From contig NZ_CP051180.1 in assembly GCF_012295575.1 (NCBI RefSeq), positions 3,968,001 through 4,032,000 of the forward strand: 64,000 bases of DNA, written 5' to 3'. The notes under the pieces are model-generated. The model did not search any database. It was not told where the DNA came from and saw only the letters and a list, made by a program, of their open reading frames with translations. This document shows, one piece after another, positions 6,649 through 61,227 of the stretch; within the stretch, counting starts at the first letter, position 1, and each line of letters starts with the position of its first letter. The DNA is from Ferrimonas lipolytica. Lineage in GTDB: Bacteria; Pseudomonadota; Gammaproteobacteria; Enterobacterales; Shewanellaceae. The position numbers were made by a program, and so were the translations under genes.

Positions 6649-6658
6649 AAAAGATTAA

Positions 6659-19174: not shown

Positions 19175-19391
19175 AATTTTAAGGTGTTTTGTTGACCAAA
19201 CAAGGCATCGGCGCAAGCCAAATAGATTAAAGCGACTCTAGCTCAGTGTGGTTAGAATTAGCAGCGCGACTTGCCTGCGGTTCACACTAAGTAGACGCAA
19301 CACAGATTAAAGCGGCACTAGCTCAGTGTGGTTAGAATTAGCAGCGCGACCTGCCTGCGGTTCACACTAAGTAGACGCAATACAGATTAAA

Positions 19392-19467
19392 GCGGCACTA
19401 GCTCAGTTGGTAGAGCGCGACCTTGCCAAGGTCGAGGTCATGAGTTCGAACCTCATGTGCCGCTCCA
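19392..19467 (+). tRNA. tRNA-Gly(GCC), copy 5
   Basis: Same sequence as copy 1. The copy 4-to-5 module repeats the copy 3-to-4 module almost exactly, which indicates recent tandem duplication. Confidence 0.98.
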
Positions 19468-19604
19468 AATTTTAAGGTGTTTTGTTGACCAAACAAGGCA
19501 TCGGCGCAAGCCAAATAGATTAAAGCGGTCCTAGCTCAGTGTGGTTAGAATTAGCAGCGCGACCTGCCTGCGGTTCACACTAAGTAAACGCAACACAGAT
19601 TAAA

Positions 19605-19680
19605 GCGGCACTAGCTCAGTTGGTAGAGCGCGACCTTGCCAAGGTCGAGGTCATGAGTTCGAACCTCATGTGCCGCTCCA
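19605..19680 (+). tRNA. tRNA-Gly(GCC), copy 6
   Basis: Same sequence as copy 1. It is the last gene of the array; its CCA is followed within ten bases by the terminator. Confidence 0.98.
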
Positions 19681-36293: not shown

Positions 36294-36520
36294 GGCCTTC
36301 CCCAGTGAGCAAAATAGGTGCAGGACAGTTTGCCCAAGCTGGGCCTAGATGGGAAGAGGTAAGCACCGCTTGTTGGTTTAATTGATGGTCAACGGATAAG
36401 TTGTGTTCAGTGGTGCTTTCCACTACAATGCGCCGGCTAATCGGCCAAAACCCTTTTTGTTCCTTGCTTCATAGGCCCGGCCGAGCCATTTGAAGCTAAC
36501 TAACCGTAAGGAGCGATACG

Positions 36521-36916
36521 ATGCGTCATTACGAAATCGTATTTATGGTTCACCCTGATCAGAGTGAGCAAGTACCTGGCATGGTTGAGCGTTACACTGC
36601 CACCATCGAAAAGGACGGCGGTAAAATCCACCGTCTGGAAGATTGGGGCCGTCGCCAACTGGCTTACCCTATCGAAAAGCTGCACAAAGCACACTACGTT
36701 TTGGTTAACACCGAAGCAACTGCTGAAGCCGTAGCTGAACTGGAAAACAACTTCCGTTTCAACGACGCAGTTATCCGTTCTATGGTACTTCGTACTAAGA
36801 ACGCTGTAACTGAGCCTTCTCCTATGGCGAAAGCCAAGGAAGAGCGTGCTGAGCGCGCTGAACGTGGCGAGCGTCGTGAACGTTCTGAGCGTCCAGCTGC
36901 ACCTGCTGCTGAGTAA
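36521..36916 (+). CDS. rpsF: 30S ribosomal protein S6
   Basis: Binds the central domain of 16S rRNA together with S18. The 131-residue protein starts [21 protein letters not shown] and ends in an acidic/basic tail ([20 protein letters not shown]) where glutamylation may occur, as in E. coli. TAAGGAGCGATACG is its ribosome binding site. It begins the rpsF-priB-rpsR-rplI operon. Confidence 0.98.
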
Positions 36917-46414: not shown

Positions 46415-47785
46415 TTATAACACTTGGCCGGCTTTTAGGCCGATGGCGAACTTCTGCAAATAGGCGTTGGGTTGATGGCCATCGTAGACAATGCCATCGA
46501 TAAAGTGGGTTTGTGGATCGCGGTAGCCGTCTTCACTGTCAAAATCAGGGAACATCTCAGGGGTTGCCAGCTTCTCTTTAATCAACGATTCAGCGGCCGC
46601 CTGATAGATATCAGGGCGATAGACGCTTTTAGCGACTTGCTCAAACCAGCTGTCGTCCTTGTCTTCGCTTATTTGGCCCCAGCGGCGCATCTGGGTCAGG
46701 TACCACACTGCATCTGAGTAGTAGGGGTAGGTGGCGTTGTAGCGGAAGAATACATTGAAATCAGGTACCTCACGCTTATCGCCCTTTTCATACTCGAAGG
46801 TGCCGGTCATGGAGTTAGCAATCACATCGTAATCGGCCCCGACGTAGTTTGATTGCGCCAAGATCTTAACTGCCTCTGGGCGGTTGGCGTTGTTGTTTTC
46901 GTCGAGCCACATGGCGGCACGGATCAACGCCCTAGTTAGGCGAATAGTGGTATTGGGGTACTTCTTGGCAAAGGCTTTGGTGATGCCAAACACTTTCTCG
47001 GGGTTGTTTTTCCAGATTTCGTAATCAGTGACGACCGGCACACCAATGTTCTTAAATACTGCCTGCTGGTTCCAAGGTTCGCCGACGCAATAACCGTAAA
47101 TGGTGCCTGCTTCTAGGGTTGCAGGCATCTGCGGTGGTGGGGTTACTGATAACAATGCTTGAGCATCTAACTGGCCAGAGGTATCCCCCTTATGCGGGGC
47201 GTAGTAGCCCGGATGGATGCCACCGGCGGCGAGCCAATAGCGCAGTTCGTAGTTGTGAGTGGACACCGGAAATACCATGCCCATCTTGAATGGTTTACCT
47301 TCATCTTGGAACTGCTCAATGACCGGCTTCAATGCATCGGCTTTGATTGGATGTACCGGTTTACCATTGGCTTGCTTAGGAATATTAACCTTCATCTTTG
47401 CCCAGACGTCGTTGGAAACGGTAATGCCGTTGCCGTTTAGGTCCATCGAGAAGGGGGTAATGATCTCAGCGGAAGTGCCGTAGCCGATGTTGGCTGCAAT
47501 GGGTTGCCCCGCGAGCATGTGGGCGCCATCTAAACGACCGTCAATAACGCCGTCAAGCAACACCTTCCAGTTGGCTTGCGCTTCGATGGTGACGTACAGT
47601 CCCTCATCTTCGAAATAGCCTTTCTCATAGGCGATAGCAATTGGCGCCATGTCGGTAAGCTTAATGAAGCCAAAGGTGAGCTCCTCCTTCTCTGGGTAAC
47701 CCAACTCTGCCGCGGCGGCAACGCCACTAAACAAGGCTGTGGCCAATGCCAAGGTTCGAACTAGAGTACGGCTAACGTTAAGCAT
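46415..47785 (-). CDS. nrtA: nitrate-binding protein of ABC transporter (NrtA/CmpA family)
   Basis: A 456-residue periplasmic binding protein with a signal peptide (ending AAAAE). The segments [33 protein letters not shown] and the ligand-pocket region GYCVGEPWN are those of NrtA/CmpA proteins, which bind nitrate or bicarbonate; nitrate is more likely in a gammaproteobacterium. It is the first gene of the operon. A palindromic hairpin lies in its roughly 200-bp leader. No nitrate reductase gene is in the window. Confidence 0.9.
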
Positions 47786-47948
47786 GATCTTCCTCCCTAA
47801 GATACTGACGACCGCACAACGGTTTCGTTGGGCAGCATCGTCTATGGCATAAGAGGTAGCAAAGGTGATGCCAATGAATGAAAGTCAGTAACGGCAGCCC
47901 TTTTAACACCGATGGTGCGCGAACTTGGCGAAGGAGGTGCGTGATGGT

Positions 47949-47964
47949 GGTGCAACCGTGCACC
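47949..47964 (-). promoter_or_regulatory. hairpin in the nrtA leader, possible ANTAR-protein target
   Basis: GGTGCA and TGCACC pair around CGGT. Read on the minus strand with a five-base stem, the hexaloop is ACGGTT, with A at position 1 and G at position 4, the pattern bound by NasR/NasT-type ANTAR antiterminators that control nitrate assimilation operons. A second such hairpin and an intrinsic terminator are not clear. Confidence 0.3.
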
Positions 47965-48025
47965 AAGGAAGTGAGTTCAATTGCGGGGCAACAATTTTGG
48001 GAGTGTGGTTAACCGCAATACCGGT

Positions 48026-49237
48026 TTAGTTGCCGGTGTAGTAGTTCAGGTTGTCGACAAGATTTTGGCCGCGCTGTTGGAATTGCGGTAGCTGTGCAAG
48101 TTCGCGATAGGCGACTTGCGCCTCTGGCCATTGTTGTTGCAGCCAATGACTTTGGCCAATAAGTAACAGCGCTTGGCCACGGCGGTGGTCTCGTTGCTGA
48201 CGTTGTTGCTGCAGTGCTGTGGCAGTCGTCGCGGTTAACGGCTGTTTGCCGATCTGCCACCATAGGTTCCGCGCCTGTTGTGGCTGTTCAAGTGCCGCAT
48301 AAAGCTGGCCTTGCAGTAACCACAACGCATCTTGTTGCTCGGCATCGACGCTAAGGGTATTGCTGCTGGTTAAGGTTGCTTGATAATCCCCGGCCCAATA
48401 ACCGTATTGCAGGCAGTTAAGGGTCAACTGAGTATTACGGCAATCACTGGCAAGGTTATAGGCACCGATGTTGCCATACAGTTGAGTTAGGGTGCGGCTA
48501 TCGGTATTCGGCTGCAACAGCTGCGCTATCTGTAAGGTGGCAGTGGCTTGTTTGAGCTGCTGCTGTTGCAGGTAGCTTTGAGATAGCAGTTGCCACGCTT
48601 GGGCGTTATCCACCTGCACCGCCAACCATTGCTGCGCACTCTGTTGTAGCTGCGGCCACTCCTGCAATGCAAGTTGACTGTAAGCAATCAAAGGCCACCA
48701 ATTATTGGGTCGTGTTTGCCGATTCGCTGTAGCTGCCGCTTGGGTCGTTTGGGCGGCGATAGGCGGGACTATCGACAGCGCATCGACCACCTGCCGGTAG
48801 GCTTCAATCTGATAGAGACTATAGGCGTATTGGTAGCGCAATTGCGCCGAAGCGTGCTCATCAATCCACGGGGTTAGCAGCTCAACTGATTGCTGATAAC
48901 GCTGCGCTTGCAGCAATTGATTGCTTAGCGCCAAGGTGATGGTTTTGTCCTGTGGCTGCTGTTGTTGGCCGCGCTGCCAACACTCCAACGAAGGTTGTTG
49001 TGCTTGTTCTAGGGCTAAACAACCATAGTGAAACAACACCGCTGGTGGTGACGGTTTCGTTAGTAGCGGCGCCAATTGTTGAGCAGCTTCACCGTAGTGG
49101 CCACGCTCCATCTGCTGGCTAGCAGCGGCAAGTACGCGGAACTGATAGCTGCTCAACCCTTGCGGCGCAGTGGTTGCTGCCACAGCAGTGCTGCTAAGCC
49201 ATAGCAGGCTAATTAAGCTGAAAGTTAAGCGGAACAT
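48026..49237 (-). CDS. TPR-repeat periplasmic protein of the TonB2 cluster
   Basis: A 403-residue protein with a signal peptide (MFRLTFSLISLLWLSSTAVAA) and a series of degenerate tetratricopeptide-like helical repeats rich in Gln. It is the last gene of the uptake operon; a TPR protein after tonB2 is common in Shewanella and Vibrio TonB2 loci, where it is thought to support TonB2 function. The ATG at 49237 lies inside the end of tonB (29-bp overlap); the frame extends further upstream, but that part is antisense-free tonB sequence and lacks a signal peptide. Confidence 0.8.
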   Translation of the reverse strand: MFRLTFSLISLLWLSSTAVAATTAPQGLSSYQFRVLAAASQQMERGHYGEAAQQLAPLLTKPSPPAVLFHYGCLALEQAQQPSLECWQRGQQQQPQDKTITLALSNQLLQAQRYQQSVELLTPWIDEHASAQLRYQYAYSLYQIEAYRQVVDALSIVPPIAAQTTQAAATANRQTRPNNWWPLIAYSQLALQEWPQLQQSAQQWLAVQVDNAQAWQLLSQSYLQQQQLKQATATLQIAQLLQPNTDSRTLTQLYGNIGAYNLASDCRNTQLTLNCLQYGYWAGDYQATLTSSNTLSVDAEQQDALWLLQGQLYAALEQPQQARNLWWQIGKQPLTATTATALQQQRQQRDHRRGQALLLIGQSHWLQQQWPEAQVAYRELAQLPQFQQRGQNLVDNLNYYTGN

Positions 49238-49823
49238 CGAGATACACAGCCACGGCTTGTTGGTTGATTTGAGCGGGTTTGAATTGCCACTGTTTGGCAG
49301 CAGTGAGCGCTGCTTGTTCAAACAGTTGTTCAGGTTGTGCCGAAAGTACTTCGGCTTGCAGCACATCGCCGTTGGCGGCGACCACCAATCGCAACATTAC
49401 CTTGCCATTAATGCCTTTGCTGCGTGCTGCTACCGGCATCTTGGGGGCAATGTAGCGTAACAATTTGGGAGCTTGATCGACTTCGGACAAACTGGCGAAC
49501 TGATTTGCCAGCGGCGCCAATTCAATGTTGCTCATCTGCGGTGGCGCCAGTTGCAATGGCGATAAGGTGATCGCCACCGTCGCCGGATTGTTGTGAGCCA
49601 CGGAAGTTGCAACGGAGCGAATTTGCGGTTGTTTTGGGGCCATTTTTTGTGGTGCTGGTTTGCTTGAATCGGGGCGTTGCTCTGGCGCCGGAATGATCAT
49701 CGGCACTACAGTGGTGGTGTCGGTAATGGTGAGTCGCTGACGCTGATTTAGATAGGTTGGTAGCCAGTACACCAGTACCCAACTAACTGCGATTGCTATC
49801 AACAGACGCAGCAGTGCAGTCAT
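49209..49823 (-). CDS. tonB: TonB2-type energy transducer
   Basis: A 204-residue protein with one N-terminal membrane anchor (LLRLLIAIAVSWVLVYWLP), a proline-containing spacer (PAPEQRPDSSKPAPQKMAPKQP) and a C-terminal TonB domain (APKMPVAARSKGINGKVMLRLVV ... FEQAALTAAKQWQFKPA). It spans the periplasm and transfers proton-motive energy to outer-membrane receptors, most likely the one encoded at the head of this operon. It overlaps exbD by four bases. Confidence 0.92.
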   Translation of the reverse strand: MTALLRLLIAIAVSWVLVYWLPTYLNQRQRLTITDTTTVVPMIIPAPEQRPDSSKPAPQKMAPKQPQIRSVATSVAHNNPATVAITLSPLQLAPPQMSNIELAPLANQFASLSEVDQAPKLLRYIAPKMPVAARSKGINGKVMLRLVVAANGDVLQAEVLSAQPEQLFEQAALTAAKQWQFKPAQINQQAVAVYLDVPLNFQLN

Positions 49824-50233
49824 TGGCCGAAGCCCATCGGCTCTGCGGCCACAGCACTGTGTTGTAATCCTGCTTGGTTAGCGATATCGAGCGCCTTAAT
49901 GGTGACACCAGTAGGGCAGCGTTGATCCGCCATTATCAGCAAGCGTGCGTTGGGGGTGGTTGCGGCTAGTTGCTGTAACGTCGCTGGCAGATAATAGATA
50001 TCTAGCTCTTGGTTATCCCAATACATGCGCCCAGCCGCATCAATGCTAAGGATCAACGGCGTACCGTGGCTGACTTCGGCGCTATTGGCTTGTGGCCGTT
50101 CTATCTCAATCTTGTTGTGCTGCACAAAGCTGGTAGAAACGATAAAGAAGATCAGCAGAATAAACACCACATCCAGCATGGGTGTCATGTTTATCTCAGC
50201 GTCTTTATCAAGGTTAAAACGGTTACTGAGCAT
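49820..50233 (-). CDS. exbD: ExbD-type biopolymer transport protein
   Basis: A 137-residue inner-membrane protein with one helix (MLDVVFILLIFFIVSTSFV). The proton-carrying Asp is in NMTPMLDVVFILL, and the periplasmic domain is of the ExbD/TolR type. The ATG at 50233 overlaps the end of exbB by about ten bases, so it is translationally coupled. A longer upstream frame is rejected because it lies within exbB. Confidence 0.92.
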   Translation of the reverse strand: MLSNRFNLDKDAEINMTPMLDVVFILLIFFIVSTSFVQHNKIEIERPQANSAEVSHGTPLILSIDAAGRMYWDNQELDIYYLPATLQQLAATTPNARLLIMADQRCPTGVTIKALDIANQAGLQHSAVAAEPMGFGQ

Positions 50234-50708
50234 AGTGTGCCCCACTCGCAATACGTTGTTGTTGCGAGCCCAAGCGGCGCTGCCACAGATACGCCAACAG
50301 CAATCCCGGTGCACCAATCAATAAACCCGTTTGAGTGCTGATCATCGCCATAGCGATACCATCGGAGATGGCGTTACCGTCGTGTAGGCCACTTTGTGCC
50401 AAGGCGCGAAACATGGTGATCATGCCACTGACGGTACCGAGTAAACCCAGTAATGGTGCCGTGGTTGCCAGTAGACGAATGGATTGCAGCTGCTCCTGTT
50501 GGTGCTGCAGCCACTGTTGTTGACTCAACTGTGCGCGGCGCTCGTCGAGCCAACTAACACCGGTTGGTTTGAGCTCTGGCTGATAGGCTGCTGGGCGAAA
50601 CAGTAATCCCGCAGCCAACCACAGCATCAGTACACTGCAACCAAGCATGGGCCACATTACTGGGCCACCGCTGTGCAGATAGCTAAAGCAGGCGGACAGA
50701 TCGAACAT
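50223..50708 (-). CDS. exbB: ExbB-type proton channel subunit
   Basis: A 161-residue MotA/TolQ/ExbB family protein with three helices. The conserved segment APLLGLLGTVSGMITMF and the following helix AMAMISTQTGLLIGAPGLL line the proton path. It forms the motor with ExbD. The ATG at 50708 overlaps the stop of the upstream ttpC gene (TGATG); a GTG one codon earlier is an alternative. Confidence 0.92.
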   Translation of the reverse strand: MFDLSACFSYLHSGGPVMWPMLGCSVLMLWLAAGLLFRPAAYQPELKPTGVSWLDERRAQLSQQQWLQHQQEQLQSIRLLATTAPLLGLLGTVSGMITMFRALAQSGLHDGNAISDGIAMAMISTQTGLLIGAPGLLLAYLWQRRLGSQQQRIASGAHYAQ

Positions 50709-52018
50709 CACTGCTGTTCCACGCGTTGAGCCATCAGCAGCGCTGCTTGCTGCTCCATATTACTGGTTAGCCGCTGTGCTCGGCGCTTCACTGGGTGGTG
50801 TAACAGTAATAGCGGAATGGCGACCATCAAGCCCGCTTGGGTGGTGATCAACGCCTTACTGATCCCCGACGAAAGTAACTTCGGCTCGGCATTACCGTAC
50901 TCGGTTAACGCTTGGAAGGTCTCAATCATGCCACTAACGGTGCCAAGCAGCCCCAACATCGGCGCTAGTGCAGCAAACAATGCCACTAAGCCTAAGCCTC
51001 GTTCAAACTGACCAAATTGACGCAACATGCCCTGTTTGAGGTGGTGATCCATCGCCTCCAATTGCTGTTGTTGCCACGCTTGAGCCAGCACCTGTGCCGC
51101 TGGAGCGCGGCGCTGTTGTTGCAGCTGCTGTTCGATATTATCGTTACCAAGCGGTTGCAGTGGGCGCCACCAATATAAGCGAACAGTACAGATGGCGAGG
51201 GTAAACAGACCAGCAAGTGCTAATAGCAATATTGGTTGCAGCAGCTCTCCGCCATCGATTACCCACTGTTGCCACGAGTGGCTAGCGGCAAGTGTGGCGA
51301 GGATGCTCCCTTGGCTGATATCCAATGGCAGTGAAGCGCTTTTGCCGCGCAACCACTCAAGTAGCTGCTCGTTGGTATTGCTTGGCAATGGGGCAACGAT
51401 GTTACCGTTGCTGCTATCGAGCAACCCCAGCGGTTGTGCCTGTTGCTCGGCAATAACCATAGCACTGCCTAGTATCGTTAAGGTCGTTGGGTAGCTTTCT
51501 CCACCGGCCCCGGCAATAGCTACCTCAGTCTGTTGGCGTTGTCCGCTGTGTTCAATGTCATCAAGGGCAAACTGAATCAGCTGTGTTAATGCGGCCGAGG
51601 AGGGAAAGCCTTCAGCGCGAGTTTGTTGTTGCAGCCAGAGGTTGCGCTGTGGTGCCAACCAACGGGTTGGGCTGGTTTGCCAGCGCTGCTGTAGCTGAGC
51701 AGTAGTTTGGCGAAAGCTGCTATCTACCAATGCCATATCGGTCTCGGCCGCGGCTTTTTGTTGTTGCAGTGCTTTTTTGTCCGCTTGCAGGGCAACCAGC
51801 TGCGCTTGAAGTTGCTGCATCTGCTTGGTTTTTTGCTGGAGCTGTTGTTTCAGTTCAGCACTAGTCGCGCTACTGCGCTGTTGTTCGTTATTAAGCTGCT
51901 GTTGCCACTGATTGTTGGCGTTGTGCATCGCCTGTGCTTGCTGCTCAACCTGAACCGCAAGCGGATCAGCCAGCCCCAAGCCACTAAAGAATAAGGTTAA
52001 CCACAGTAACGGTTTCAT
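50708..52018 (-). CDS. ttpC: TtpC-like MotA/TolQ/ExbB protein with periplasmic coiled coil
   Basis: A 436-residue protein: signal peptide (MKPLLWLTLFFSGLGLADP), a long Gln-rich coiled coil (about 25-105), a globular region, and then a C-terminal three-helix ExbB-like domain with APMLGLLGTVSGMIETF. TtpC is the fourth component of Vibrio-type TonB2 systems and is required for their function. The ATG at 52018 overlaps the stop of the DUF3450 gene as ATGA. Confidence 0.9.
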   Translation of the reverse strand: MKPLLWLTLFFSGLGLADPLAVQVEQQAQAMHNANNQWQQQLNNEQQRSSATSAELKQQLQQKTKQMQQLQAQLVALQADKKALQQQKAAAETDMALVDSSFRQTTAQLQQRWQTSPTRWLAPQRNLWLQQQTRAEGFPSSAALTQLIQFALDDIEHSGQRQQTEVAIAGAGGESYPTTLTILGSAMVIAEQQAQPLGLLDSSNGNIVAPLPSNTNEQLLEWLRGKSASLPLDISQGSILATLAASHSWQQWVIDGGELLQPILLLALAGLFTLAICTVRLYWWRPLQPLGNDNIEQQLQQQRRAPAAQVLAQAWQQQQLEAMDHHLKQGMLRQFGQFERGLGLVALFAALAPMLGLLGTVSGMIETFQALTEYGNAEPKLLSSGISKALITTQAGLMVAIPLLLLHHPVKRRAQRLTSNMEQQAALLMAQRVEQQ

Positions 52019-52746
52019 TGACTTACCTTCGCGAATGGCAGAGTGATCAACTTTGCGGCCTGTTGGTTTTGGCTGATAGCAATAGCGCTTTGGATTGCAT
52101 CGGCAGCGTCGGTACTTAACGGTTGCCACTGTTTTAGTTGAGTATTGAAATGGGCATTAAATTGACCATCATGGCTTTGGGCAAACCACGCCAACCTCCC
52201 CAAGCGGAAGGTTTGCACCTGCCGTTGCTCACCTGCAACCACGATCACCTCATTGGTGGTATGGCTGCCATAACCTAGCTCGACCTCGATTTTGACCAGC
52301 TCTAGCAAGCGTCGAAATCGCTCTGCGTGGCTCATATCGGCGTTATCCAAGGATTGGCGGAAGAACTGCAAGCGACGTTGTCGCTCTTGCTGTAAAAAAG
52401 GCATGTCCGCGTTAATCTGGTTTTCGATGGCGGCATACCAGATCTCCAAACTCGGCTCGAGTTGCTGGCGGATGGCATCGATATTGGCGATGTCGGTGTT
52501 GAGCTGATTGATCTGTTGCTGTTGTTGCTCAACCTGACGTTGCAGCTTACTTATCTGGAATTCGGTCCAGTACAGCTCGGCCAAGGCCTGCTGTTGTTCA
52601 CTTTGTTGCTGGGCCTTCTGTTGTTGCCATAGCTGTGCTTGTTGCCCTAAGGCGACAGAGGTTGCTAACGGTTGCTGGATCTGTTGTTGCATCGTCGCGG
52701 GTGTCGCTTGGGCAACCGCCGCGCTGAATAATAGAGGCAACAGCAT
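52015..52746 (-). CDS. DUF3450 periplasmic coiled-coil protein
   Basis: A 243-residue protein with a signal peptide (MLLPLLFSAAVAQA) and a long Gln-rich coiled coil (about 25-110), followed by a conserved segment FRRLLELVKIEVELGYGSHT that marks DUF3450. These proteins regularly precede ttpC in TonB2 operons; the function is unknown but is probably structural with TtpC. The ATG at 52746 is chosen because GGAGG lies seven bases upstream; a GTG nine codons earlier is less likely. Confidence 0.88.
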   Translation of the reverse strand: MLLPLLFSAAVAQATPATMQQQIQQPLATSVALGQQAQLWQQQKAQQQSEQQQALAELYWTEFQISKLQRQVEQQQQQINQLNTDIANIDAIRQQLEPSLEIWYAAIENQINADMPFLQQERQRRLQFFRQSLDNADMSHAERFRRLLELVKIEVELGYGSHTTNEVIVVAGEQRQVQTFRLGRLAWFAQSHDGQFNAHFNTQLKQWQPLSTDAADAIQSAIAISQNQQAAKLITLPFAKVSQ

Positions 52747-52748
52747 GA

Positions 52749-53576
52749 TTAATCCTCCAACCTTTTTGAGCACAGCGACAGGTGTAATACGTGCAGCAAC
52801 AGGCTCAACAGTAACAGTAGATAGCAGCCAAAAAAGAAGGCGGTAAGCGGATTATGGATAAGCGTTACCTTAGCGGTTAAGGCACTATCCGGCTGGCCGT
52901 ATGGCACATAAAAATCGGTGACAATAAGCTTATTGCTTTGCCATTGGTAGGGTTCGAGAAAACGCGCTTGAGCGTTGATGTTCTGCTGTTGAATAGAGAC
53001 CACAAACTCAGCGGTGTTATGGCGTGGATCAAATTGGGTAATGCTGCGACGGGTGATGCGGCCAGCAGCGGTATGCCCTTGCAGATCGGCACGGATAGCA
53101 GCGATATCGTCTTGGTAGTCGATATGCTTAAGGGTAATGGTTGTTCCTTCAAATTGGGTGCTGTCACCCACCTGCATTTCAATTTTGGTTGGCTGATGTA
53201 CCCACACAACATCAAGCCCATGACACACAAAGATCAGTAAGGTAAGCAGGTGGATCGGCGCTAACATAATCTGCTTGTGGCGCCAGCGCCGTCGCTGCCA
53301 CAGTGGGATCAAACTGGTGTAAGTGCAGGCTAGAGTGCTGCAGCCGAGTAAGAAAAACACCAGCACTAAACTGGATAGCCAAAGTAGCAGTACAGGTTCA
53401 AGCTGCATGATTGGCCACCACTCAACCAAGGCGATGCTATTGAGCTGTTTTAAGCTGCTGCGATAGCCACCTAAATCCGCTAACCCCATCCCGATGCCAA
53501 ACCAGACAATGCCAGCGCACAGCAGAATAAAGGCCAGTCGCATCGAACTGAGTTGCTTAAGTGAATACTGGATCAT
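52749..53576 (-). CDS. ResB-like membrane protein
   Basis: A 275-residue protein with three N-terminal helices (about 13-33, 60-82 and 105-124), a periplasmic domain of about 110 residues and a last helix (about 247-267). This topology and the opening SSMRLAFILLCAGIVWFGIGMGLADLG resemble ResB (Ccs1), half of the system II cytochrome c synthase. A His in the third helix (HLLTLLIFVCHGLDVVWV) could ligate haem. It is shorter than typical ResB. It overlaps the CcsA-like gene by four bases and ends two bases before the DUF3450 start. A haem-related role is inferred, not shown. Confidence 0.65.
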   Translation of the reverse strand: MIQYSLKQLSSMRLAFILLCAGIVWFGIGMGLADLGGYRSSLKQLNSIALVEWWPIMQLEPVLLLWLSSLVLVFFLLGCSTLACTYTSLIPLWQRRRWRHKQIMLAPIHLLTLLIFVCHGLDVVWVHQPTKIEMQVGDSTQFEGTTITLKHIDYQDDIAAIRADLQGHTAAGRITRRSITQFDPRHNTAEFVVSIQQQNINAQARFLEPYQWQSNKLIVTDFYVPYGQPDSALTAKVTLIHNPLTAFFFGCYLLLLLSLLLHVLHLSLCSKRLED

Positions 53577-54307
53577 AGTAGGCGGTATCCAAGTTGAACG
53601 ACGACGATAAAGCCAAGCAAACTGCCCTTAGCGGCATACATTTTTTGTTTGGTGGCTAACCAGCGGGGAGGGAAATGAAATACCAAGTTAAGCAGCAGAT
53701 AGATCAAGGCAGAGAAGAAGAAGTGGCTACTCCAACTCCAGCTATGGCCCCAGCCTTGAGCGGCCCAATAGCTGCCGGAGATCTCACCAGATAGGAAGAG
53801 AACACCAGACAGCAATGCCAGTTGATGGCAGCGAGCGGCGAGACGTTGACTATCGGCACTATAGAGTAAGGCATAACCGATGGCAGCTACTAAGGCACAC
53901 CCCATCGCCAGTGGTCGCGACAGGAAAAACAGATTGGCCCACACATAGGTGAGCATGGAGCTGTTATCCAGCGGCACGGAATAGAACGCTGAGATAAGTA
54001 GCAGGATCAAACTGGCATTGGTGCTATGCAGTTGCAAGCGACCATTGAGTTTACGGCTAGGATCGCAATGGTGCTGTTGGCAGTGACACGGCGAAAAACT
54101 CTTTAGTGGCATCAGCGTACAGATGAGTACCACCGTTGCGGTCGCGAGCAACATAAACAGGGTGCAGCTAAAGGGGTACAACAGGGTTGCCGCATCGAGG
54201 TAAGCCAGGCTGATTAGGCACAACAACAGAGCAGTATTGCGATACCACTTAATCAGGTTGCAGGTGCCTACCGATTGCACCGTCTCTATCTGGTTCATCT
54301 GCGGCAA
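53573..54307 (-). CDS. CcsA-like membrane protein with altered tryptophan-rich motif
   Basis: A 244-residue protein with about six hydrophobic segments. GSYWAAQGWGHSWSWSSHFF aligns with the tryptophan-rich haem-handling signature of CcsA/ResC and CcmF (WGxxWxWD), but the Asp is Ser and the following Pro-Lys-Glu is lost. Candidate haem-ligand His residues flank it. A cytoplasmic-loop-like cluster CHCQQHHC near residues 74-81 is unusual. It overlaps both neighbours. The pair with the ResB-like gene suggests a haem or quinone-linked membrane module repurposed for this transporter. Confidence 0.62.
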   Translation of the reverse strand: MPQMNQIETVQSVGTCNLIKWYRNTALLLCLISLAYLDAATLLYPFSCTLFMLLATATVVLICTLMPLKSFSPCHCQQHHCDPSRKLNGRLQLHSTNASLILLLISAFYSVPLDNSSMLTYVWANLFFLSRPLAMGCALVAAIGYALLYSADSQRLAARCHQLALLSGVLFLSGEISGSYWAAQGWGHSWSWSSHFFFSALIYLLLNLVFHFPPRWLATKQKMYAAKGSLLGFIVVVQLGYRLL

Positions 54308-55596
54308 AACTCCGTTAGTTTGTTAAGCACTTGCGGATCCTGCGCATCTACAATGGTTGGGTTAGATAGTCCCCAGTGATTGATCGCCCGTTGCACCAAT
54401 GACGGCCGAATGACCCAGATGTGCTTGCGGGCGGGGTTGGTTAATAGTGCCGCCAATGATTTTGCTAAGCCGCCGCCATTGAACTCCATTGGCCCAATCT
54501 CATCCACCAACCAGATACCATTATGCTGGGTCGTCGCTGGGGTTAACGCGTCTTGGCCGAGTTTGATGCCACGCTGAGAAAATTGGAAACGGGTACCGGT
54601 GATCGGGTCGAAATCACTCTGGCGCTGACCAAAGCGGCAGCGTTCGCCGCTGGCGACATTAATAATGTCGCTGCTGAAACGTTTGCCATCGCGCATCTCG
54701 CCGGGGCAAATAATGCCGTTGAGTGGTAATTGTTGGTCGCTATTTTGATTCACCAGTTGTTCTAGGGCGGTAGTCTTGCCACTGCCAGATTCACCGGTAA
54801 GGATTAATACTTCGGGGGGCTGCTGGCTAAGCAATTTTTGCGGCATAAACAGTTCCTGATTGCAGATCTTCACCGAGCCAGTTGTAAGGCCATACAAGCG
54901 GCTGATGTTGTGGTTGGTCATCACCTCGGATGTTGACCCAAACGCGAGGGTTTTACCGTGATCGAGCATCAACACTTTATCGGCGTACAGGTTGGCTAGG
55001 TTAGGATCGTGCAGGATCGCAACAGCTGCGGTGTTGTTATGCTTACAGGCCTGCTGCACTTGGTTCAAAATGTGGTAACGGTTGCGGTAATCAAGATGGT
55101 TGGTGGGTTCATCGAGTAGCAACAGGTTTTGACTTTGCAACATGGCCCGAGCCAACAGCAACAGTTGTCGTTCGCCACCGCTGAGTTGGTTAAAGTCGCG
55201 CTGAGCCAGATGATCGGCACCGAGATTGGCCATGATAGTTAACGCATCTTGGCGGTCTTGTTTACTCGGACTGGCGAAAGCACTTAGGTAAGGGGTACGC
55301 CCCATCAACACCATCTCAACGCCACTAAAAGCGAATGCACTGTCTTGCTGTTGTGGCACCAGTGCCACCTGTTGCGCTAACTCTCGAGTGGAAAGGTTGC
55401 CAATGGGGATGTCATCAAGGGTAATGTCGCCGCTGTCGTATTGCCGCTGTCCCAGGAGGCAATCAAACAGGGTTGATTTGCCTACCCCATTAGCGCCGAG
55501 AATCGCGACTAACTCACCGCGCTCAACGCTAAAGCTAACGTTATGGAGCAGTGGCTTGTCATTGATGTGATGGTTTAGCTTGGCAACCTTAAGCAT
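54295..55596 (-). CDS. ABC transporter ATPase fused to a THEP1-like NTPase domain
   Basis: A 433-residue protein. Residues 1-245 are a FecE/BtuD-type ABC ATPase: Walker A GANGVGKST (34-42), signature LSGGE (138-142), Walker B LLLLDEP (158-164) and switch His196. Residues 260-433 form a second P-loop domain: GESGSGKTT (268-276) and IWLVDEIGPMEF (361-372), the signature of the THEP1/NTPase_1 nucleoside-triphosphatase family. The two domains are in one frame with no internal start needed. The ATG at 55596 overlaps the permease stop. The second domain may couple transport to processing or sensing of the ligand. Confidence 0.88.
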   Translation of the reverse strand: MLKVAKLNHHINDKPLLHNVSFSVERGELVAILGANGVGKSTLFDCLLGQRQYDSGDITLDDIPIGNLSTRELAQQVALVPQQQDSAFAFSGVEMVLMGRTPYLSAFASPSKQDRQDALTIMANLGADHLAQRDFNQLSGGERQLLLLARAMLQSQNLLLLDEPTNHLDYRNRYHILNQVQQACKHNNTAAVAILHDPNLANLYADKVLMLDHGKTLAFGSTSEVMTNHNISRLYGLTTGSVKICNQELFMPQKLLSQQPPEVLILTGESGSGKTTALEQLVNQNSDQQLPLNGIICPGEMRDGKRFSSDIINVASGERCRFGQRQSDFDPITGTRFQFSQRGIKLGQDALTPATTQHNGIWLVDEIGPMEFNGGGLAKSLAALLTNPARKHIWVIRPSLVQRAINHWGLSNPTIVDAQDPQVLNKLTEFCRR

Positions 55597-56632
55597 GGTG
55601 ACCTCGATGCCATTGCGAGCGGTAGAGCAGGAACGCAAACATCGGCGCACCGATGATCGAGGTGATGATCCCAACCGGTAACTCGGTAGAAAAGGCGCTG
55701 CGCGCTAAGGAGTCAGCCATCACCATGAAGGCTGACCCAGCAAGGGTACTTAGCGGCAGCAAACGAACGTGATCAGCACCTACAAAGGTGCGCATCATAT
55801 GGGGGATAACTAAGCCAATCCACGCGACTTGCCCCACCACGGAAACGCAGGCTGCGACCACAAAGGAGCTAATAACGGTGAGCAACAAACGTAGTTGGTG
55901 TGGGGAGATACCGAGGCTACGACTTTGTTTATCGCCAAGGCACAACACGTTGAGGCGATAGCGCAACAGATGGGCGACGGTGTAACCGATAACTAGCGCT
56001 GGCAATAACTTAGCGACACTGCCCCAGCTGCTGGTGGAGAGCGAGCCCATCAACCAAAATACAATGGCTGGCAGCTGGCCGTAGGGGTCGGCCAGAGTTT
56101 TTAGCACCATTAATGCGGCACCAAACAGCGAGCCGACGATGATGCCGGTCATGATCATAATCAGCAGACTGTTGTTACCGACTTTACGGGCCATGCTAAT
56201 GGCTGCGCCAGCAGCCAATAAACCAAAGCTAAACGCCAAGATCTGCACCGACATCCAGCTGCTGTAGGGCAATACTAAACCAAGGGCTGCACCGAACATC
56301 GCGCCGGAGGTAACCCCTAAGATATCTGGCGACACCAGCGGGTTACGAAACACCCCTTGGTAGATGGTGCCAGATAGGGCTAAGCCAGCGCCGACCAGCA
56401 GTGCCATGCATAAACGCGGTAACCGCACCAACAGAATAATCTGTTGTTCTGCGCTGAGATCCGCCGGTAAAGGCGAAGCTAACAGCAAGCACCATAATAC
56501 TTCCGGCAGACGGACTAACGCCGATAAGGTGGCCGATGCGCTGACATCGTAGCGGCCCATCGCTAAGGCGATAATCAAGATGACTGCTGTGGCTAGCCAA
56601 AGTCGCTGCGATGCCGTGGTTGTTACTGGCAT
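55589..56632 (-). CDS. FecCD-family ABC transporter permease
   Basis: A 347-residue inner-membrane protein with about nine to ten helices of the BtuC/FhuB/FecD type. The segments LVRLPRLCMALLVGAGLALSGTIYQGVFRNPLVSPDILGVTSGA and GLVIPHMMRTFVGADHVRLLP are family hallmarks. The substrate class is metal chelates (iron-siderophore, haem, cobalamin). It overlaps the binding-protein gene by ten bases and the ATPase gene by eight. Confidence 0.93.
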   Translation of the reverse strand: MPVTTTASQRLWLATAVILIIALAMGRYDVSASATLSALVRLPEVLWCLLLASPLPADLSAEQQIILLVRLPRLCMALLVGAGLALSGTIYQGVFRNPLVSPDILGVTSGAMFGAALGLVLPYSSWMSVQILAFSFGLLAAGAAISMARKVGNNSLLIMIMTGIIVGSLFGAALMVLKTLADPYGQLPAIVFWLMGSLSTSSWGSVAKLLPALVIGYTVAHLLRYRLNVLCLGDKQSRSLGISPHQLRLLLTVISSFVVAACVSVVGQVAWIGLVIPHMMRTFVGADHVRLLPLSTLAGSAFMVMADSLARSAFSTELPVGIITSIIGAPMFAFLLYRSQWHRGHHA

Positions 56633-57606
56633 TGGCTCGACTCAAATGGAGAAGCGCACGGGCGGGCCAAGATTTGTTGGTAAAACTGAGCAATACGCTC
56701 GTTAACGTCGACATCCTGAAATTGTTGTGGGTGCACAACGCTGGCAAGGTAGTAGGCGCCAGCCACCGCCATTGGTGATGGCATATGCCACAGTGCATCG
56801 GAAGGCAAGGTGGCGCGAGGGTGTTGGGCCAACCAATTGAGCCCTGGTTCTGCCAATTGCTGTTCGAGGGTGTTATTACGGCCTTGCTCTAATACCAAAA
56901 ACTGCGGTTGCCAGCGTAGTAGCTGCTCGAGGTTAATTTTGGGGTGAAAACCCGACGTTGCCGCTGCAACATTAGTTAGCCCGGCTATCTGCATCAGCTC
57001 ATTTTGGTACATCTGGCCGCTAACGCTGCGATAGAAGTCGCTGCCATTAGCGTAGTAAGCCGGCACCGGTTTAGTGTTGGCTAAACGTTGACTTATCTCT
57101 GCCTGCAGTTGTTTGGTGGCGGTTTGAATTGCTAAAGCCTGAGGCATTGTACCGGTTGCGGTGCCAAGCATATTGAGCGCTTGTTGAACCTCTGCAGCGG
57201 ATTCCGCCTTCATTAATAATGTAGGTACACCGAGCAAGCTCAGTTGTTGTGCAAGCCTAGCACCATCTTTTTTATCATTAATAACAACCAAATCCGGCTG
57301 TAGCGAGATGATGGTTTCAATATTAATGCCAGCCGAGCGACTCCCCACTGCCACAGGGTTATTGCCGTTGAGAAGGGTGCTGACTAAAGATTGGCGACCG
57401 TCTTGGCTGGAGATCCCAACCAGTTGTTGGTTCAAACCAAGGCTCAAACAAAAAATAGTGGCGGGCATGTAGGTGGTTACAACCCGCTTGGCTGGTGCGG
57501 GCAGGGTAACGTGACGCCCTGCCATATCAGTAAGCTGCACTGGGGTGGCCAGTGCAGCAAAACTGAGACACCAAATAGCAACGATCGTGATGATCCGTTG
57601 AAACAT
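56623..57606 (-). CDS. BtuF/FepB-like periplasmic binding protein
   Basis: A 327-residue protein with a signal peptide (ending FAALATP) and the cluster A-II fold used for iron chelates, haem and cobalamin. Landmarks: VQLTDMAGRHVTLPAPAKRVV at the start, IETIISLQPDLVVIN at about 95-109, and a long connecting helix. Two Cys near the C-terminus (RPCASPFESSQCQ) may form a disulfide. No ligand-specific motif is evident. It begins 11 bp downstream of the receptor gene. Confidence 0.9.
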   Translation of the reverse strand: MFQRIITIVAIWCLSFAALATPVQLTDMAGRHVTLPAPAKRVVTTYMPATIFCLSLGLNQQLVGISSQDGRQSLVSTLLNGNNPVAVGSRSAGINIETIISLQPDLVVINDKKDGARLAQQLSLLGVPTLLMKAESAAEVQQALNMLGTATGTMPQALAIQTATKQLQAEISQRLANTKPVPAYYANGSDFYRSVSGQMYQNELMQIAGLTNVAAATSGFHPKINLEQLLRWQPQFLVLEQGRNNTLEQQLAEPGLNWLAQHPRATLPSDALWHMPSPMAVAGAYYLASVVHPQQFQDVDVNERIAQFYQQILARPCASPFESSQCQ

Positions 57607-57617
57607 GGATATTCCTA

Positions 57618-59675
57618 TTAGAAGCGGTAGGTTACGCCGACTTCGAAGTTACGACCTTCGTTCGCTTGACCGTCGCCTTCGTAGTAGTTCTCGTCAAACA
57701 AGTTGTTGACGTTGGCAAACGCAGTTAGCTGGTTATTGAAGAAGTCTTTACGAATGCCGCCATTAACGGTAAACACGTTCTCTTCCCACAGGGTATCTTC
57801 GCCATCCCAGTAGATCATGAACTCGTCTTTGTAGTTCATGCGTAGGTTGGCGCTAATGCCGGTGTACTGCTCATCCCAGATCAAGATGGCGGTAAACTCG
57901 TTCTTTGGCAGATCGCGCAGGTGCTCGGTTTCGGCATCGTCGGACTTGTCGCGAGCGTGGGTGTAGGTGTGATCCAAGCTGTAACGCAAGGTATCGGTGA
58001 TGTTACCGGTGAAGGTCAGTTCGGTACCGTAGTATTCCGCTTTACCAATGTTTACTGGGCGCTCATCGGCACAGTAACCATCGTCTTCATACAGAGCACA
58101 TAGCTCACCAATGCGGTCGTCAACATCATGGTAGAAGGCATTGACGTTAACGTTGTTTAACCAACCTTGAGCGAAGTCTTTTTCCCAACCAGCGGCGTAG
58201 CTCAAGCTGCGTTCTGGATCCAGTTCGTACAGCTTACCGTCGTCGGCTTTCATGTCGTCGAAGGTCGCAAAGCGAGTTTTCTGGGCAACCGAGCCAAATA
58301 CGCGGCTGCCATCATTCAAGGCGTAGCTTAAACCAACCATTGGATCAAAGGTATCGGACTCGTCGCCTTTGCCTTCACCTAGTACATCACCAGCAGAGGT
58401 ACCTTGGAAGTCGTTGATCGTTTGCTGGTGCCATGCGATGCCAGCAACTGCAGTTAGGTTGCCAAACTGCATGGTGTCTTCAGCGGCAAGGCTGAAGGTT
58501 TCCAATGAGGAGCGCTCTGTCGGCTCGGAGAAATCAGGATCAATCGCGGAAATGGTTTTTTGCTTGTGAACGTCTTCTTTATAGTTGAAAGACAGGCTCA
58601 AGTTGTTCCAGTTGTTTACTTTAATATCGCCAAACAGTGCGCCACCAACGGTGTAATCGTCGTAGGTGCTGTCACCCAGCTTGACGCTTTTCTCCGCAGA
58701 GTCGTAAAACTCCATGTTGTCGGTGTGGGTGTGGTAATACGCTAACGCACGCATGGTTAGAGTGTCAGTGAACTTGTGGCTGGCGTTGATATCGATGCCG
58801 CGATCTTGATACTCAGATACATCAGAGAAGGTCGAGTAGGAGTACATTACCTTGTTGTAGCTGTCGTGGAACGGCAGGCCACGCTCGGTGTCGTAGCTGT
58901 AGATGCTGGCGTAAATCTCGCTGGTATTATTGGCATAGCCAGCGCGCAGACGACCGTTCAGCGATTCGGAGTCGGAGTTGATGCGCTTGCCACCATCTTC
59001 TACTTCCATGTACTTTGGCAGATCGCCCACTTTGTCTTTAATGTACGACTCAATTGGCTCGTAATCGTCAGAGAGGGAGTAAGCGTCGCGCTCGGTACGA
59101 TCGATGGTAGCAAATACGGTAAAGCCATTCTTACCGTAACTTAATGAGGCGGACTCGTGGTTTTGGCCGTATTCACCAACGCTAGCGGTGATCTCACCAG
59201 AAAGACCTTCGCTGCCTTTTTGGGTAATGATGTTAACCACACCGCCCATACCATTGGGGCCATACAGTACTGAAGATGCGCCTTTGGTTACTTCAACCTT
59301 AGCGATGATTGCCGCAGGGATCTGGTTTAGATCAAGCTGACCATACTTAGTCTCATAATATGGAACACCATCCAACAGGATTAGGATCTTATCTTGTTCA
59401 AAACCCTGCATGGTTAGGAACTTTTCGCCCTTGTTCGACTGGGCAATGTGAACGCCTGGTACGTATTCCAACGCATCGGCTGCGGTTTTTGCACCAACCA
59501 ACTCAATGGTTTCTGCGGTCAGAACATTATTGATGGCAATGTCGCGCACACCGGTGGTTTCTGATACGACGATCTCTCCAAGCGAGAACACTTCCTTGTC
59601 TTCAGCCATGGCGGCTGAAGCTGCTAATGACGCTGATACCACTAGGGCCAGCTGAGAAATACGTAAACCGTTCAC
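57618..59675 (-). CDS. TonB-dependent outer-membrane receptor
   Basis: A 685-residue receptor with a signal peptide (ending AAMAED), a TonB-box-like EIVVSE at about residues 33-38, a plug domain (about 45-150, with ILILLDGVPYYETKYGQLDLNQIPAAII and YGPNGMGGVVNIIT) and a 22-strand barrel ending in VTYRF. It heads the uptake operon. The length and plug are of the BtuB/FepA/haem type; no FRAP/NPNL haem-receptor motif is seen. A candidate Fur box lies about 120 bp upstream. Confidence 0.93.
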   Translation of the reverse strand: MNGLRISQLALVVSASLAASAAMAEDKEVFSLGEIVVSETTGVRDIAINNVLTAETIELVGAKTAADALEYVPGVHIAQSNKGEKFLTMQGFEQDKILILLDGVPYYETKYGQLDLNQIPAAIIAKVEVTKGASSVLYGPNGMGGVVNIITQKGSEGLSGEITASVGEYGQNHESASLSYGKNGFTVFATIDRTERDAYSLSDDYEPIESYIKDKVGDLPKYMEVEDGGKRINSDSESLNGRLRAGYANNTSEIYASIYSYDTERGLPFHDSYNKVMYSYSTFSDVSEYQDRGIDINASHKFTDTLTMRALAYYHTHTDNMEFYDSAEKSVKLGDSTYDDYTVGGALFGDIKVNNWNNLSLSFNYKEDVHKQKTISAIDPDFSEPTERSSLETFSLAAEDTMQFGNLTAVAGIAWHQQTINDFQGTSAGDVLGEGKGDESDTFDPMVGLSYALNDGSRVFGSVAQKTRFATFDDMKADDGKLYELDPERSLSYAAGWEKDFAQGWLNNVNVNAFYHDVDDRIGELCALYEDDGYCADERPVNIGKAEYYGTELTFTGNITDTLRYSLDHTYTHARDKSDDAETEHLRDLPKNEFTAILIWDEQYTGISANLRMNYKDEFMIYWDGEDTLWEENVFTVNGGIRKDFFNNQLTAFANVNNLFDENYYEGDGQANEGRNFEVGVTYRF

Positions 59676-59795
59676 TGTTATCTCCTGCTCAGTGTGATGG
59701 TCGCAAATAGTCCGACCATTTAATGGCGACGCATGCTAGCAAAAGGCCTTAATCAATTAAGGGCTAATAGTTGTTTTTAAGTCTTTGATCACGAA

Positions 59796-59814
59796 TATAA
59801 TGACAATAAATGCC
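59796..59814 (-). promoter_or_regulatory. candidate Fur box upstream of TonB-dependent receptor
   Basis: TATAATGACAATAAATGCC matches 13 of 19 positions of the GATAATGATAATCATTATC consensus by my count. It lies 121-139 bp upstream of the receptor start. Confidence 0.35.
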
Positions 59815-59891
59815 CATTGATATGTTCATTTTGTAGTTATTGGTCAATATGTCTCACTGTTGGTGGTGGTTGAGTGAGTCAGCCTCACGTG

Positions 59892-59990
59892 GGTCAAATT
59901 GACGCAATGAGTGAATCTAAAGACTGTAATTGCTAGGGCATTGGCGAGCAGGATCACAGCTTGTGATGGTTCAATTTGGTCAGTTTGACC
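59892..59990. promoter_or_regulatory. two related palindromes upstream of the receptor operon
   Basis: GGTCAAATTGACG (59892-59904) and GGTCAGTTTGACC (59978-59990) share the form GGTCA-N3-TGACC; centres are 86 bp apart. The regulator is not identified. Confidence 0.35.
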
Positions 59991-60432
59991 CTATTGGCAG
60001 GTAAATGATTAGCTTTGCGAATGCGGTTGTTGACTCAACAGTGGCATAACGTCAGAACGAACCAAGGGGGAGGGGCTATAGAAGCGCTAAAGTGGTCGCC
60101 GCTTTGTTGCTGCTGGAAGTTGGGACGATTTGTTTACTGTGTACAGTCACTATTACATTAGTTGGGGTTTTTGAGGCTAAGTCCAGCAATGGGTACTAAC
60201 CATATGGATTAGTGAACGTCGCACTCAGTTATCGGAAGTGGTAAAGCGTGCCACGCACCAGAGAGCATTGTAAAAACCATGCATATGTTTACTTGCTTTT
60301 GTAGAAGAAAAATATTTCTTCGTTATTTACCTCCAAATTACTTGTTGGCCGTAAATTCGACGGGGAGAGTATCGAATAATAATGCGATTATAATTTTGTT
60401 GAACAAGATACGATTTTACATAGATATACTTA

Positions 60433-60448
60433 CAACCTAATTAGGTTG
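60433..60448. promoter_or_regulatory. 16-bp perfect palindrome upstream of the hexaheme gene
   Basis: CAACCTAATTAGGTTG is fully self-complementary, in AT-rich DNA about 270 bp before the hexaheme start. It is a plausible operator, for example for the TetR protein encoded at the end of this cluster. Confidence 0.35.
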
Positions 60449-60715
60449 GCGGTGAAAATAGACAATATAATATTTAAATAATTCTTTAATAAATCTAACG
60501 AACTCACAGTAGTAATGAACAACTAGCTTTAGTCATTAAAGTTTGTTGGGCTAATATAAATTTACATTTTTGGTTAAAGATTGTCCTGTTTTGTGATTGA
60601 ACCCTTAACGCCTAGGGAAATTTGTAATAAACCTATCATAAATTTTTTCCACGCAATGCATCCGTCGTAACGTCGACATACTCTGCTCTGGCTCGCAGTG
60701 CATTTCAGGAAGCTT

Positions 60716-61210
60716 ATGAAAAACCGTTTACTTATCTCGCTCATTTGTACTTTTACACCTTTGGCTACCCAAGCGATTGAATTTAAAGAAGTCGACAACT
60801 TCTTAAATTGCAATAAGTGCCATATTGAATCAGTGTTACCTGTTGAGCACGTTGCACTCAATCAAAATGATGATTGTGCAAGCTGCCATAATATTGATCA
60901 GCACAATGAGCCGAAACACAATACTTCGCTTAGAGGCAAAATATCGTTAGCCCACTCACACACTCTAAACGGGCTAAGTTGTAATGATTGCCATCAAACC
61001 GAAGGTGATTACCCATCTAATGAACAGTGTTTCGAATGTCACGAAAGTTATCAAAAAATCGCAGAGCAAACTGCCTTTTTAGGGCACATGAACCCTCATG
61101 ATAGCCCGCACTATCAAGACACCCAAACTTGCGATACCTGCCACTACGTGCACGATAAATCAGAAGATCTCTGTCTTGAGTGCCATACCCGTTTCCGTCC
61201 TATTCCATAA
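60716..61210 (+). CDS. periplasmic hexaheme c-type cytochrome
   Basis: A 164-residue protein with a signal peptide (ending TQAIE) and six CxxCH motifs starting at residues 32, 54, 89, 105, 139 and 153. Similar small cytochromes in Shewanella carry four haems and donate electrons to a flavoprotein reductase encoded next to them. The ATG at 60716 has AGGA upstream; one six codons earlier is less likely. The Tat flavoprotein gene starts 17 bp downstream, so the two form an electron-donor and reductase pair. Confidence 0.85.
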   Translation: MKNRLLISLICTFTPLATQAIEFKEVDNFLNCNKCHIESVLPVEHVALNQNDDCASCHNIDQHNEPKHNTSLRGKISLAHSHTLNGLSCNDCHQTEGDYPSNEQCFECHESYQKIAEQTAFLGHMNPHDSPHYQDTQTCDTCHYVHDKSEDLCLECHTRFRPIP

Positions 61211-61227
61211 TTCAAAGGAACCTTAGA

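Follow-up and report, generated by a model that had tools for sequence, protein, structure and literature searches.

Why should genes resembling those of a cytochrome c synthase lie in the middle of an importer locus? The question is raised by positions 48026-59675 of a stretch of 64,000 nucleotides (nt) of the Ferrimonas lipolytica genome (4.13 Mb, single contig; NZ_CP051180.1, positions 3,968,001-4,032,000), referred to here as the window. The original prediction, made from the sequence alone, had placed a CcsA/ResB-like pair between the genes of an ATP-binding cassette (ABC) transporter and those of a dedicated TonB2 motor. Our answer is held tentatively, at somewhat less than an even chance, and rests on sequence comparison. 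The twelve genes would form a metal-chelate importer cassette, and the pair would be a derived System II synthase acting as a b-haem reductase that aids uptake.

Twelve genes as one unit

Twelve minus-strand open reading frames (ORFs) were found within 48026-59675 in the ORF listing, each at the position where it had been predicted. They encode a receptor, a binding protein, a FecCD permease, an ABC ATPase fused to an NTPase_1 domain, a CcsA-like protein, a ResB-like protein and a six-gene TonB2 motor (Table 1). The receptor, the binding protein, FecCD, ABC and NTPase_1, DUF3450, two MotA/ExbB proteins, ExbD and TonB exceed their Pfam cut-offs. With receptor, Peripla_BP_2 protein, FecCD permease and ABC ATPase above cut-off, the set of a FecCD-type ABC importer and a TonB-dependent receptor is complete. 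The listed ORF starts appear too long for the ATPase, CcsA-like, TtpC, ExbD and TPR genes, and start codons were picked by judgement for the junction counts. With these probable starts 10 of the 11 junctions overlap, by 4-29 nt, and the remaining one is a gap of 11 nt. This agrees with the overlaps or gaps of up to 21 base pairs that had been claimed.

The same twelve genes were found in three other Ferrimonas genomes (G295, G300 and G304), in the same order and on a single strand. Protein identity between the window's cassette and these copies is 39-81% over the main matches. The claim of a tightly packed, self-sufficient unit from the receptor to TonB is borne out, and the unit extends to the TPR gene. 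The flanks of the four sites, compared over 3.8-4.7 kilobases (kb) on seven sides and 2.3 kb on one, had no common protein similarity at an E-value (E) of 1e-8. Hence, the borders of the block were set at the ends of the receptor and TPR genes. Conserved order and dissimilar flanks are good evidence for a functional cassette that was probably moved or relocated as a whole. An IS110 transposase gene is located about 1.2 kb beyond the end of the cassette copy L015. Internal promoters splitting the cluster had been named as a possible objection. A promoter consensus scan of 47500-61000 on both strands gave 4 promoter-like sites, compared with a mean of 13.3 in shuffled sequence, and this is weak evidence that there are none in the cassette.

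Relationship of the pair to ResB and CcsA

Library models hardly recognize the two membrane proteins. The CcsA-like protein scored 14.4 bits with PF01578 (cut-off 29.9) and 19 bits with TIGR03144 (cut-off 187.6). No match to Pfam or NCBIfam was obtained for the ResB-like protein up to E 0.5, and PDB sequence searches with the alignments of both proteins gave none at E 1. The pair was compared with true family members by profile-profile alignment. True ResB was found in 39 of 143 genomes of the class, and 30 of these loci were collected. The final reference ORFs came from 26 loci and were picked free of motifs, with profiles of short ResB/CcsA pairs. The ResB set (n = 31) holds 23 of the 26 loci and 8 short rows, with L072, L074 and L075 left out. 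The CcsA set (n = 31) holds 25 of the 26 loci and 6 short rows, with L073 left out. The picking profiles themselves hold the motifs, so both sets consist of recognizable family members.

The ResB-like protein aligned to the 31 ResB sequences with an hhalign probability of 94.5% (E 8.4e-8, score 63.3). In the controls the score did not exceed 24.7 in 40 column shuffles, and the reversed alignment gave 0.6%. For the CcsA-like protein and the 31 CcsA sequences, 33.9% was obtained (E 4.3e-4, score 34.8), with at most 24.2 in 40 shuffles and 0.2% for the reversed alignment. Comparable values resulted from earlier reference sets, namely 96.0% (E 3.8e-9) for 22 ResB rows picked by a pattern containing the His and 34.2% for CcsA rows picked by a pattern containing the WWD Asp. 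In these earlier sets the cross-comparisons of ResB-like with CcsA and of CcsA-like with ResB were no better than reversed controls. The short pairs alone as reference gave 70.9% for the ResB-like and 34.1% for the CcsA-like protein. These comparisons identify the ResB-like protein as a remote ResB homologue; the link of the CcsA-like protein to CcsA is weaker. The predicted ResB/CcsA-derived pair within a transport locus is thereby supported by profile comparison with controls.

The fold predicted for the ResB-like protein (mean predicted local distance difference test 74.6, predicted template modelling score 0.60) consists of three long N-terminal helices, a periplasmic beta domain and a C-terminal helix. 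Hydropathy gave four main segments for this protein and six to seven for the CcsA-like protein. The genome holds four other PF01578 proteins, three of them with the WWD motif and with CcmF- or CcmC-like lengths, and no PF05140 ResB was found in it. General maturation of cytochrome c can therefore probably do without the pair. The CcsA-like profile scored 26.0 and 24.9 on the two single CcmF-like rows from this genome and 34.8 on the CcsA alignment, a comparison that is not like-for-like. Descent of the CcsA-like protein from CcmC- or YpjD-type proteins was not favoured.

In seven gammaproteobacterial loci (L081-L087) a short ResB of 330-360 amino acids (aa) lies directly downstream of an ORF of 830-930 aa with exactly 11 CxxCH motifs. 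Eight short-ResB loci were fetched altogether; L080 is the one without such an ORF, and a CcsA-type gene adjoins the short ResB in six of the eight. These loci have the appearance of ordinary System II sets for an eleven-haem cytochrome. The ancestor of the pair may plausibly have been related to such short System II sets.

Retained and lost haem ligands

Three columns are His in all 31 CcsA references. Their names are assigned here from where they lie with respect to the WWD motif and the helices rather than from a structure of the CcsA-like protein. The column after the WWD loop (TM-His) is His in all four CcsA-like rows. The column before the loop (P-His1) is Phe in all four, and the C-terminal one (P-His2) lies beyond the end of the proteins and is thus absent from all four. 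The WWD Asp, present in 30 of 31 references, is Ser in 4/4 rows. The four tryptophans of the WWD region, found in 31/31 CcsA, are kept in every row. Another CcsA column, His in 26 of 31, is likewise not kept. For ResB, the sole column with His in 31/31 references is also His in 4/4 ResB-like rows (H109), and H109 sits in the third long helix of the predicted fold. The residue pattern was identical with the earlier motif-picked and the final motif-free reference sets.

In a review of CcsBA structures the transmembrane haem is described as bound by two histidines, one from TM3 of CcsB and the other from CcsA, whereas P-His1, P-His2 and WWD hold the periplasmic haem (PMC10663686). Since both periplasmic ligands are lost, ligation of cytochrome c by the pair is unlikely. 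That both buried ligands are kept speaks for a bound haem.

Importer proteins and TonB2 motor

The receptor, the binding protein and the FecCD permease are ordinary members of their families. Among PDB structures the colicin I receptor is the best relative of the receptor, followed by BtuB. For the binding protein the ranking is 4hn9, HI_1472 (3psa), 4ovk, 4mo9 and BtuF.

In the fused ATPase, NTPase_1 (PF03266) scored 67.5 bits in the whole protein and 64.5 bits for the domain alone. The fusion is present in all four cassette genomes, and the P-loop and a DEIGPME stretch, a motif of the NTPase_1 family, are invariant in them. In the phylum sample the domain was matched in 18 of 398 genomes, with 344 bits for the genome studied here and 19-26 bits for the 17 others. 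These weak matches are probably chance P-loop matches. On this basis no comparable NTPase_1 relative was seen among the 397 other Pseudomonadota genomes sampled.

All six TonB2 components are present in the cassette, in the order TtpB-TtpC-ExbB-ExbD-TonB-TtpD. Thus, the predicted dedicated motor was found, and two more DUF3450 modules exist elsewhere in the genome (L046, 1538000-1554000; L047, 2170000-2186000), each with DUF3450, TtpC, ExbB and ExbD. Their proteins are about 26-43% identical to those of the cassette over the aligned parts. The 16 kb around each module contained no match for ABC, CcsA-like or ResB-like proteins. One of the two modules has a receptor-type ORF about 1.1 kb upstream.

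Table 1 Genes of the cassette, in order of transcription (window coordinates)
Gene product	Coordinates	Strand	Basis of assignment
TonB-dependent outer-membrane receptor, 685 aa, GTG start, first gene	57618..59675	-	Pfam Plug and TonB_dep_Rec
Periplasmic binding protein, Peripla_BP_2, 327 aa	56623..57606	-	Family and PDB relatives
FecCD/BtuC-type inner-membrane permease, 347 aa	55589..56632	-	PF01032, 273.5 bits
ABC ATPase with C-terminal NTPase_1 (THEP1-like) domain, 433 aa	54295..55596	-	PF00005 and PF03266 over cut-off; probable ATG used (start in ORF listing: TTG at 55674)
CcsA-like membrane protein, about 241 aa	53573..54298	-	Profile comparison; start chosen
ResB/CcsB-like membrane protein, 275 aa	52749..53576	-	Profile comparison, predicted fold
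DUF3450 protein (TtpB2-like), first TonB2 motor gene	52015..52773	-	PF11932, 191.5 bits; role by position
Large ExbB/TolQ-type protein (TtpC-like), 436 aa from probable ATG	50708..52018	-	PF01618
ExbB, 162 aa	50223..50711	-	PF01618
ExbD, 137 aa from probable ATG	49820..50233	-	PF02472
TonB, 204 aa	49209..49823	-	PF03544, 66.1 bits; TIGR01352
TPR protein (TtpD2-like), 403 aa, probable ATG ahead of a signal-peptide-like stretch	48026..49237	-	Position; TPR matches below cut-off only

Distribution

The order and class samples used here are partial and do not represent the whole groups. The ResB-like protein was present in 4 of 14 Ferrimonas genomes, including the one studied here, and each copy lies within the cassette. 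The order sample of 294 other genomes gave no match (1/295, its own), nor did the class sample of 368 other genomes when searched with the alignment (1/369, its own), nor did plasmids. The neighbourhood survey proposed with the original prediction thus finds the protein with the cassette only. Homologues found mostly outside transport loci had been named as a refutation. This applies to distant relatives only: true ResB and CcsA do lie elsewhere, for example beside 11-CxxCH ORFs in 7 of 8 fetched loci, whereas in the genomes sampled the ResB-like protein itself was seen in the cassette only. A contig scan with the CcsA-like alignment, which reaches only sequences bearing two short peptide patterns, found 46 stretches fitting these patterns; 3 were confirmed, and they are the same three Ferrimonas loci.

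The receptor was matched at 1e-70 in 1 of 295 genomes of the order, its own. The permease was matched at 1e-60 in its own and 7 others of the 369 class genomes, the others being at most 46% identical. Six of these seven loci were inspected: a receptor-type match occurs in the stretch in four of them, and no CcsA-like or ResB-like protein was detected in the six at E 1e-3. Against plasmids, the binding protein matched 227 records and the fused ATPase at least 5000, all below 60% identity. Among the 20 plasmid matches listed for the ATPase, query coverage is 54-60% in 17 and 84% in the other 3, which have 26% identity.

Proposed function and alternatives

In the proposed mechanism the receptor would bind a metal chelate at the outer membrane, and the dedicated TonB2 motor (TtpB-TtpC-ExbB-ExbD-TonB-TtpD) would drive it into the periplasm. 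From the binding protein the chelate would go to the FecCD permease, with the ABC half of the fused ATPase as the energy source. The pair, as a System II cytochrome c synthase which would have lost its periplasmic ligating site and kept the bis-histidine transmembrane haem site, would most likely act as a b-haem membrane oxidoreductase, the role proposed for CcmF. Its electrons would reach the complex being imported on the periplasmic side, as such electron transfer is the simplest use of a buried b-haem in an importer. The metal would be reduced and then released or made fit for transport, and the NTPase_1 domain may couple or regulate transport. Haem binding, electron transfer, the chelate substrate and the role of NTPase_1 are what we infer from the findings above. 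The original suggestion that the ligand is handled or reduced in the membrane stays a proposal, which the retained transmembrane ligands make more specific. The further proposal that a cytochrome c synthase was turned into a transport subunit and haem-based electron conduit, and makes up, with the ABC-NTPase fusion and its own TonB2 motor, a redox-coupled importer class not described before, is regarded as doubtful. In that case the invariant WWD-loop His H188 would perhaps be a new periplasmic ligand.

Several points weigh against the proposed mechanism. The hhalign probability of the CcsA-like protein is only about 34%. The cassette encodes no electron donor, and the quinone pool would have to serve. 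FecCD permeases usually take up the complex intact, and a release in the periplasm is hard to reconcile with this. Finally, no Fur-like site stands out upstream, although the scan discriminates poorly, as even the haem locus, its positive control, reached 14/19 at best.

For the window the best Fur-like score was 13/19, reached by 16 of 50 shuffles, and for the three relatives 10-12. No site of 15/19 or more was found in nine sequences including the haem locus. A scan of the four upstream regions with eight consensus patterns gave nothing convincing, the best being Fur with 13/19 in the window (reached by 5/60 shuffles). At about 59760-59850, upstream of the receptor, GTGATC and short AT-rich blocks are conserved in all four upstream regions. 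These blocks are a possible regulator site.

A ferric or other metal chelate is our preferred guess for the substrate. Of the ligands considered in the original prediction, haem and cobalamin became less likely. Cobalamin riboswitches (91.9 and 91.7 bits) accompany two other receptor/ABC loci of the genome, one of which also has CobU; no such riboswitch was found in the window or in L013-L015. With the B12 receptor model TIGR01779, the best model for the riboswitch-linked receptors, the cassette receptor scored 86 bits and the riboswitch-linked receptors 409.4 and 445.8, none of them reaching the cut-off of 599.7. A standard haem locus also exists elsewhere, with a receptor (TIGR01786, 472.3 bits) and an ATPase (332.3 bits) over cut-off and with HutX and HutW. 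A PepSY_TM protein is encoded a few kilobases from it (L105, 15465-16481). Because of these separate B12 and haem loci, a corrinoid or ordinary haem is less likely as substrate.

The same haem locus bears on another possibility, import of haem or a different tetrapyrrole with the pair as a conduit or depot for haem. Imported haem would then be accepted by the WWD loop and the transmembrane site and passed on within the membrane or to the cytoplasm, the reverse of export by CcsBA. The haem-handling ancestry of CcsA and ResB, the retained pair of TM-His residues and the four tryptophans would suit this, and the haem ATPase model is the best NCBIfam match of the ABC domain (225.1 bits, cut-off 261). 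However, the genome already has its ordinary haem locus. The cassette receptor is below the cut-offs of both haem receptor models (115.2 of 316.85 and 96.4 of 323.75 bits), and no HutX/HemS-type or haem-degradation family was matched among the twelve proteins. We consider haem import through such a conduit decidedly unlikely. Import of molybdate, tungstate or a molybdophore, similar to MolABC and with NTPase_1 acting on metal or pterin metabolism, is improbable. In its favour, HI_1472, presumably the molybdate protein MolA, is the second-best PDB relative of the binding protein. Below the cut-offs, the NTPase domain of the window shows weak similarity to MobB (15.7 bits) and that of L015 to DUF2478 (13.7 bits). 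Furthermore, the set around one of the permease relatives (L102) adjoins a ModE-type regulator. In L102 the regulator (1492-2301) is divergent from receptor, binding protein, FecCD permease and ATPase genes (2401-7829), an arrangement which suggests TonB-dependent molybdate or tungstate uptake by that set. The L102 receptor, however, is just 23% identical to that of the cassette. No ModE-like site stands out upstream of the cassette, and the haem pair would be left without a role. ModB is over cut-off in 14/14 Ferrimonas genomes, whether the cassette is present or not. An anticorrelation of cassette and ModB, considered as a sign of molybdate import, is therefore not supported.

Two further explanations concern the pair itself. 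It may be a scaffold, channel or sensor lacking a catalytic haem, such as a connector between the ABC transporter and the TonB2 motor. Its location exactly between these two modules is consistent with such a link, as is the strong divergence of both proteins, barely seen by library models. Loss of haem binding would predict another pattern than the one observed, in which both transmembrane ligands are kept in 4/4 rows while the periplasmic ones vanish, and we judge this explanation unlikely. A specialized cytochrome c synthase for a partner cytochrome is highly improbable. It would agree with the ancestry and with the short ResB genes beside 11-CxxCH ORFs in 7 of 8 other gammaproteobacterial loci, but P-His1, P-His2 and the WWD Asp are lost in 4/4 rows and none of the twelve proteins matched a cytochrome c family. 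A cytochrome c3-like gene, at 60698, lies in a flank that is not common to the other three sites.

Other features of the window

This cytochrome c3-like gene (170 aa) is located beside a separate flavocytochrome c-type protein binding flavin adenine dinucleotide (TIGR01813, 419.7 bits) at 60698-62733, on the strand opposite to the cassette. By their families the two are a predicted split fumarate-reductase-like pair. Six tRNA-Gly(gcc) genes lie in a row at 18300-19680, each with 68.2 bits (Rfam), and an RpsF ribosomal-protein leader was found at 36444-36523.

Comparison with known systems

Among the titles and abstracts listed by literature searches, no description of this gene arrangement was found. 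CcsA genes are described in iron-regulated Bacteroidetes loci of different make-up (PMC10434189). The tonB2 operon of Vibrio vulnificus, ttpB2-ttpC2-exbB2-exbD2-tonB2-ttpD2, has the same six kinds of components as the cassette motor in the same order (PMC6957404). TtpB2 (255 aa) is encoded by its first gene and TtpD2 (425 aa, with TPR motifs) by its last. There the six genes form a separate operon that has a predicted Fur site and serves several siderophores (PMC6957404). In contrast, the TonB2 genes of the cassette lie downstream of a receptor, an ABC importer and the CcsA/ResB-like pair. Closer in this respect is peuA-tonB2 of Vibrio parahaemolyticus, where a receptor is co-transcribed with the TonB2 system. 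It is described as peuA and six TonB2 genes (VPA0151-0156), and genes for a binding protein, permease, ATPase or CcsA/ResB-like proteins are not mentioned in the parts of the paper considered (PMC4141801). As a portable set of twelve genes, the cassette is a small model system for a receptor that has its private TonB motor.

The pair resembles CcsBA (ResB-CcsA) as a two-protein membrane complex with WWD tryptophans, TM-His1 and TM-His2 and a beta domain in the CcsB partner (PMC10663686). It differs in the loss of P-His1, P-His2 and the WWD Asp, in its location within an importer and in scores below the family cut-offs. For CcmF the transmembrane b-haem is proposed as a reductant of a periplasmic substrate, similar to the role suggested for the pair, but CcmF has the WWD/P-His site and serves cytochrome c synthesis (PMC10663686). 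If our reading is true, a machine for haem export and ligation was recruited for nutrient import. The pair would then be a natural CcsBA variant with the transmembrane haem site separated from the ligation site, useful to test the role of that haem. The siderophore reductases FsrB and FoxB are described as reducing an imported ferric complex at the inner membrane, as proposed for the pair. They belong to a different protein family. Beside these known enzymes, the pair would thus represent a second solution for reducing chelates at the inner membrane.

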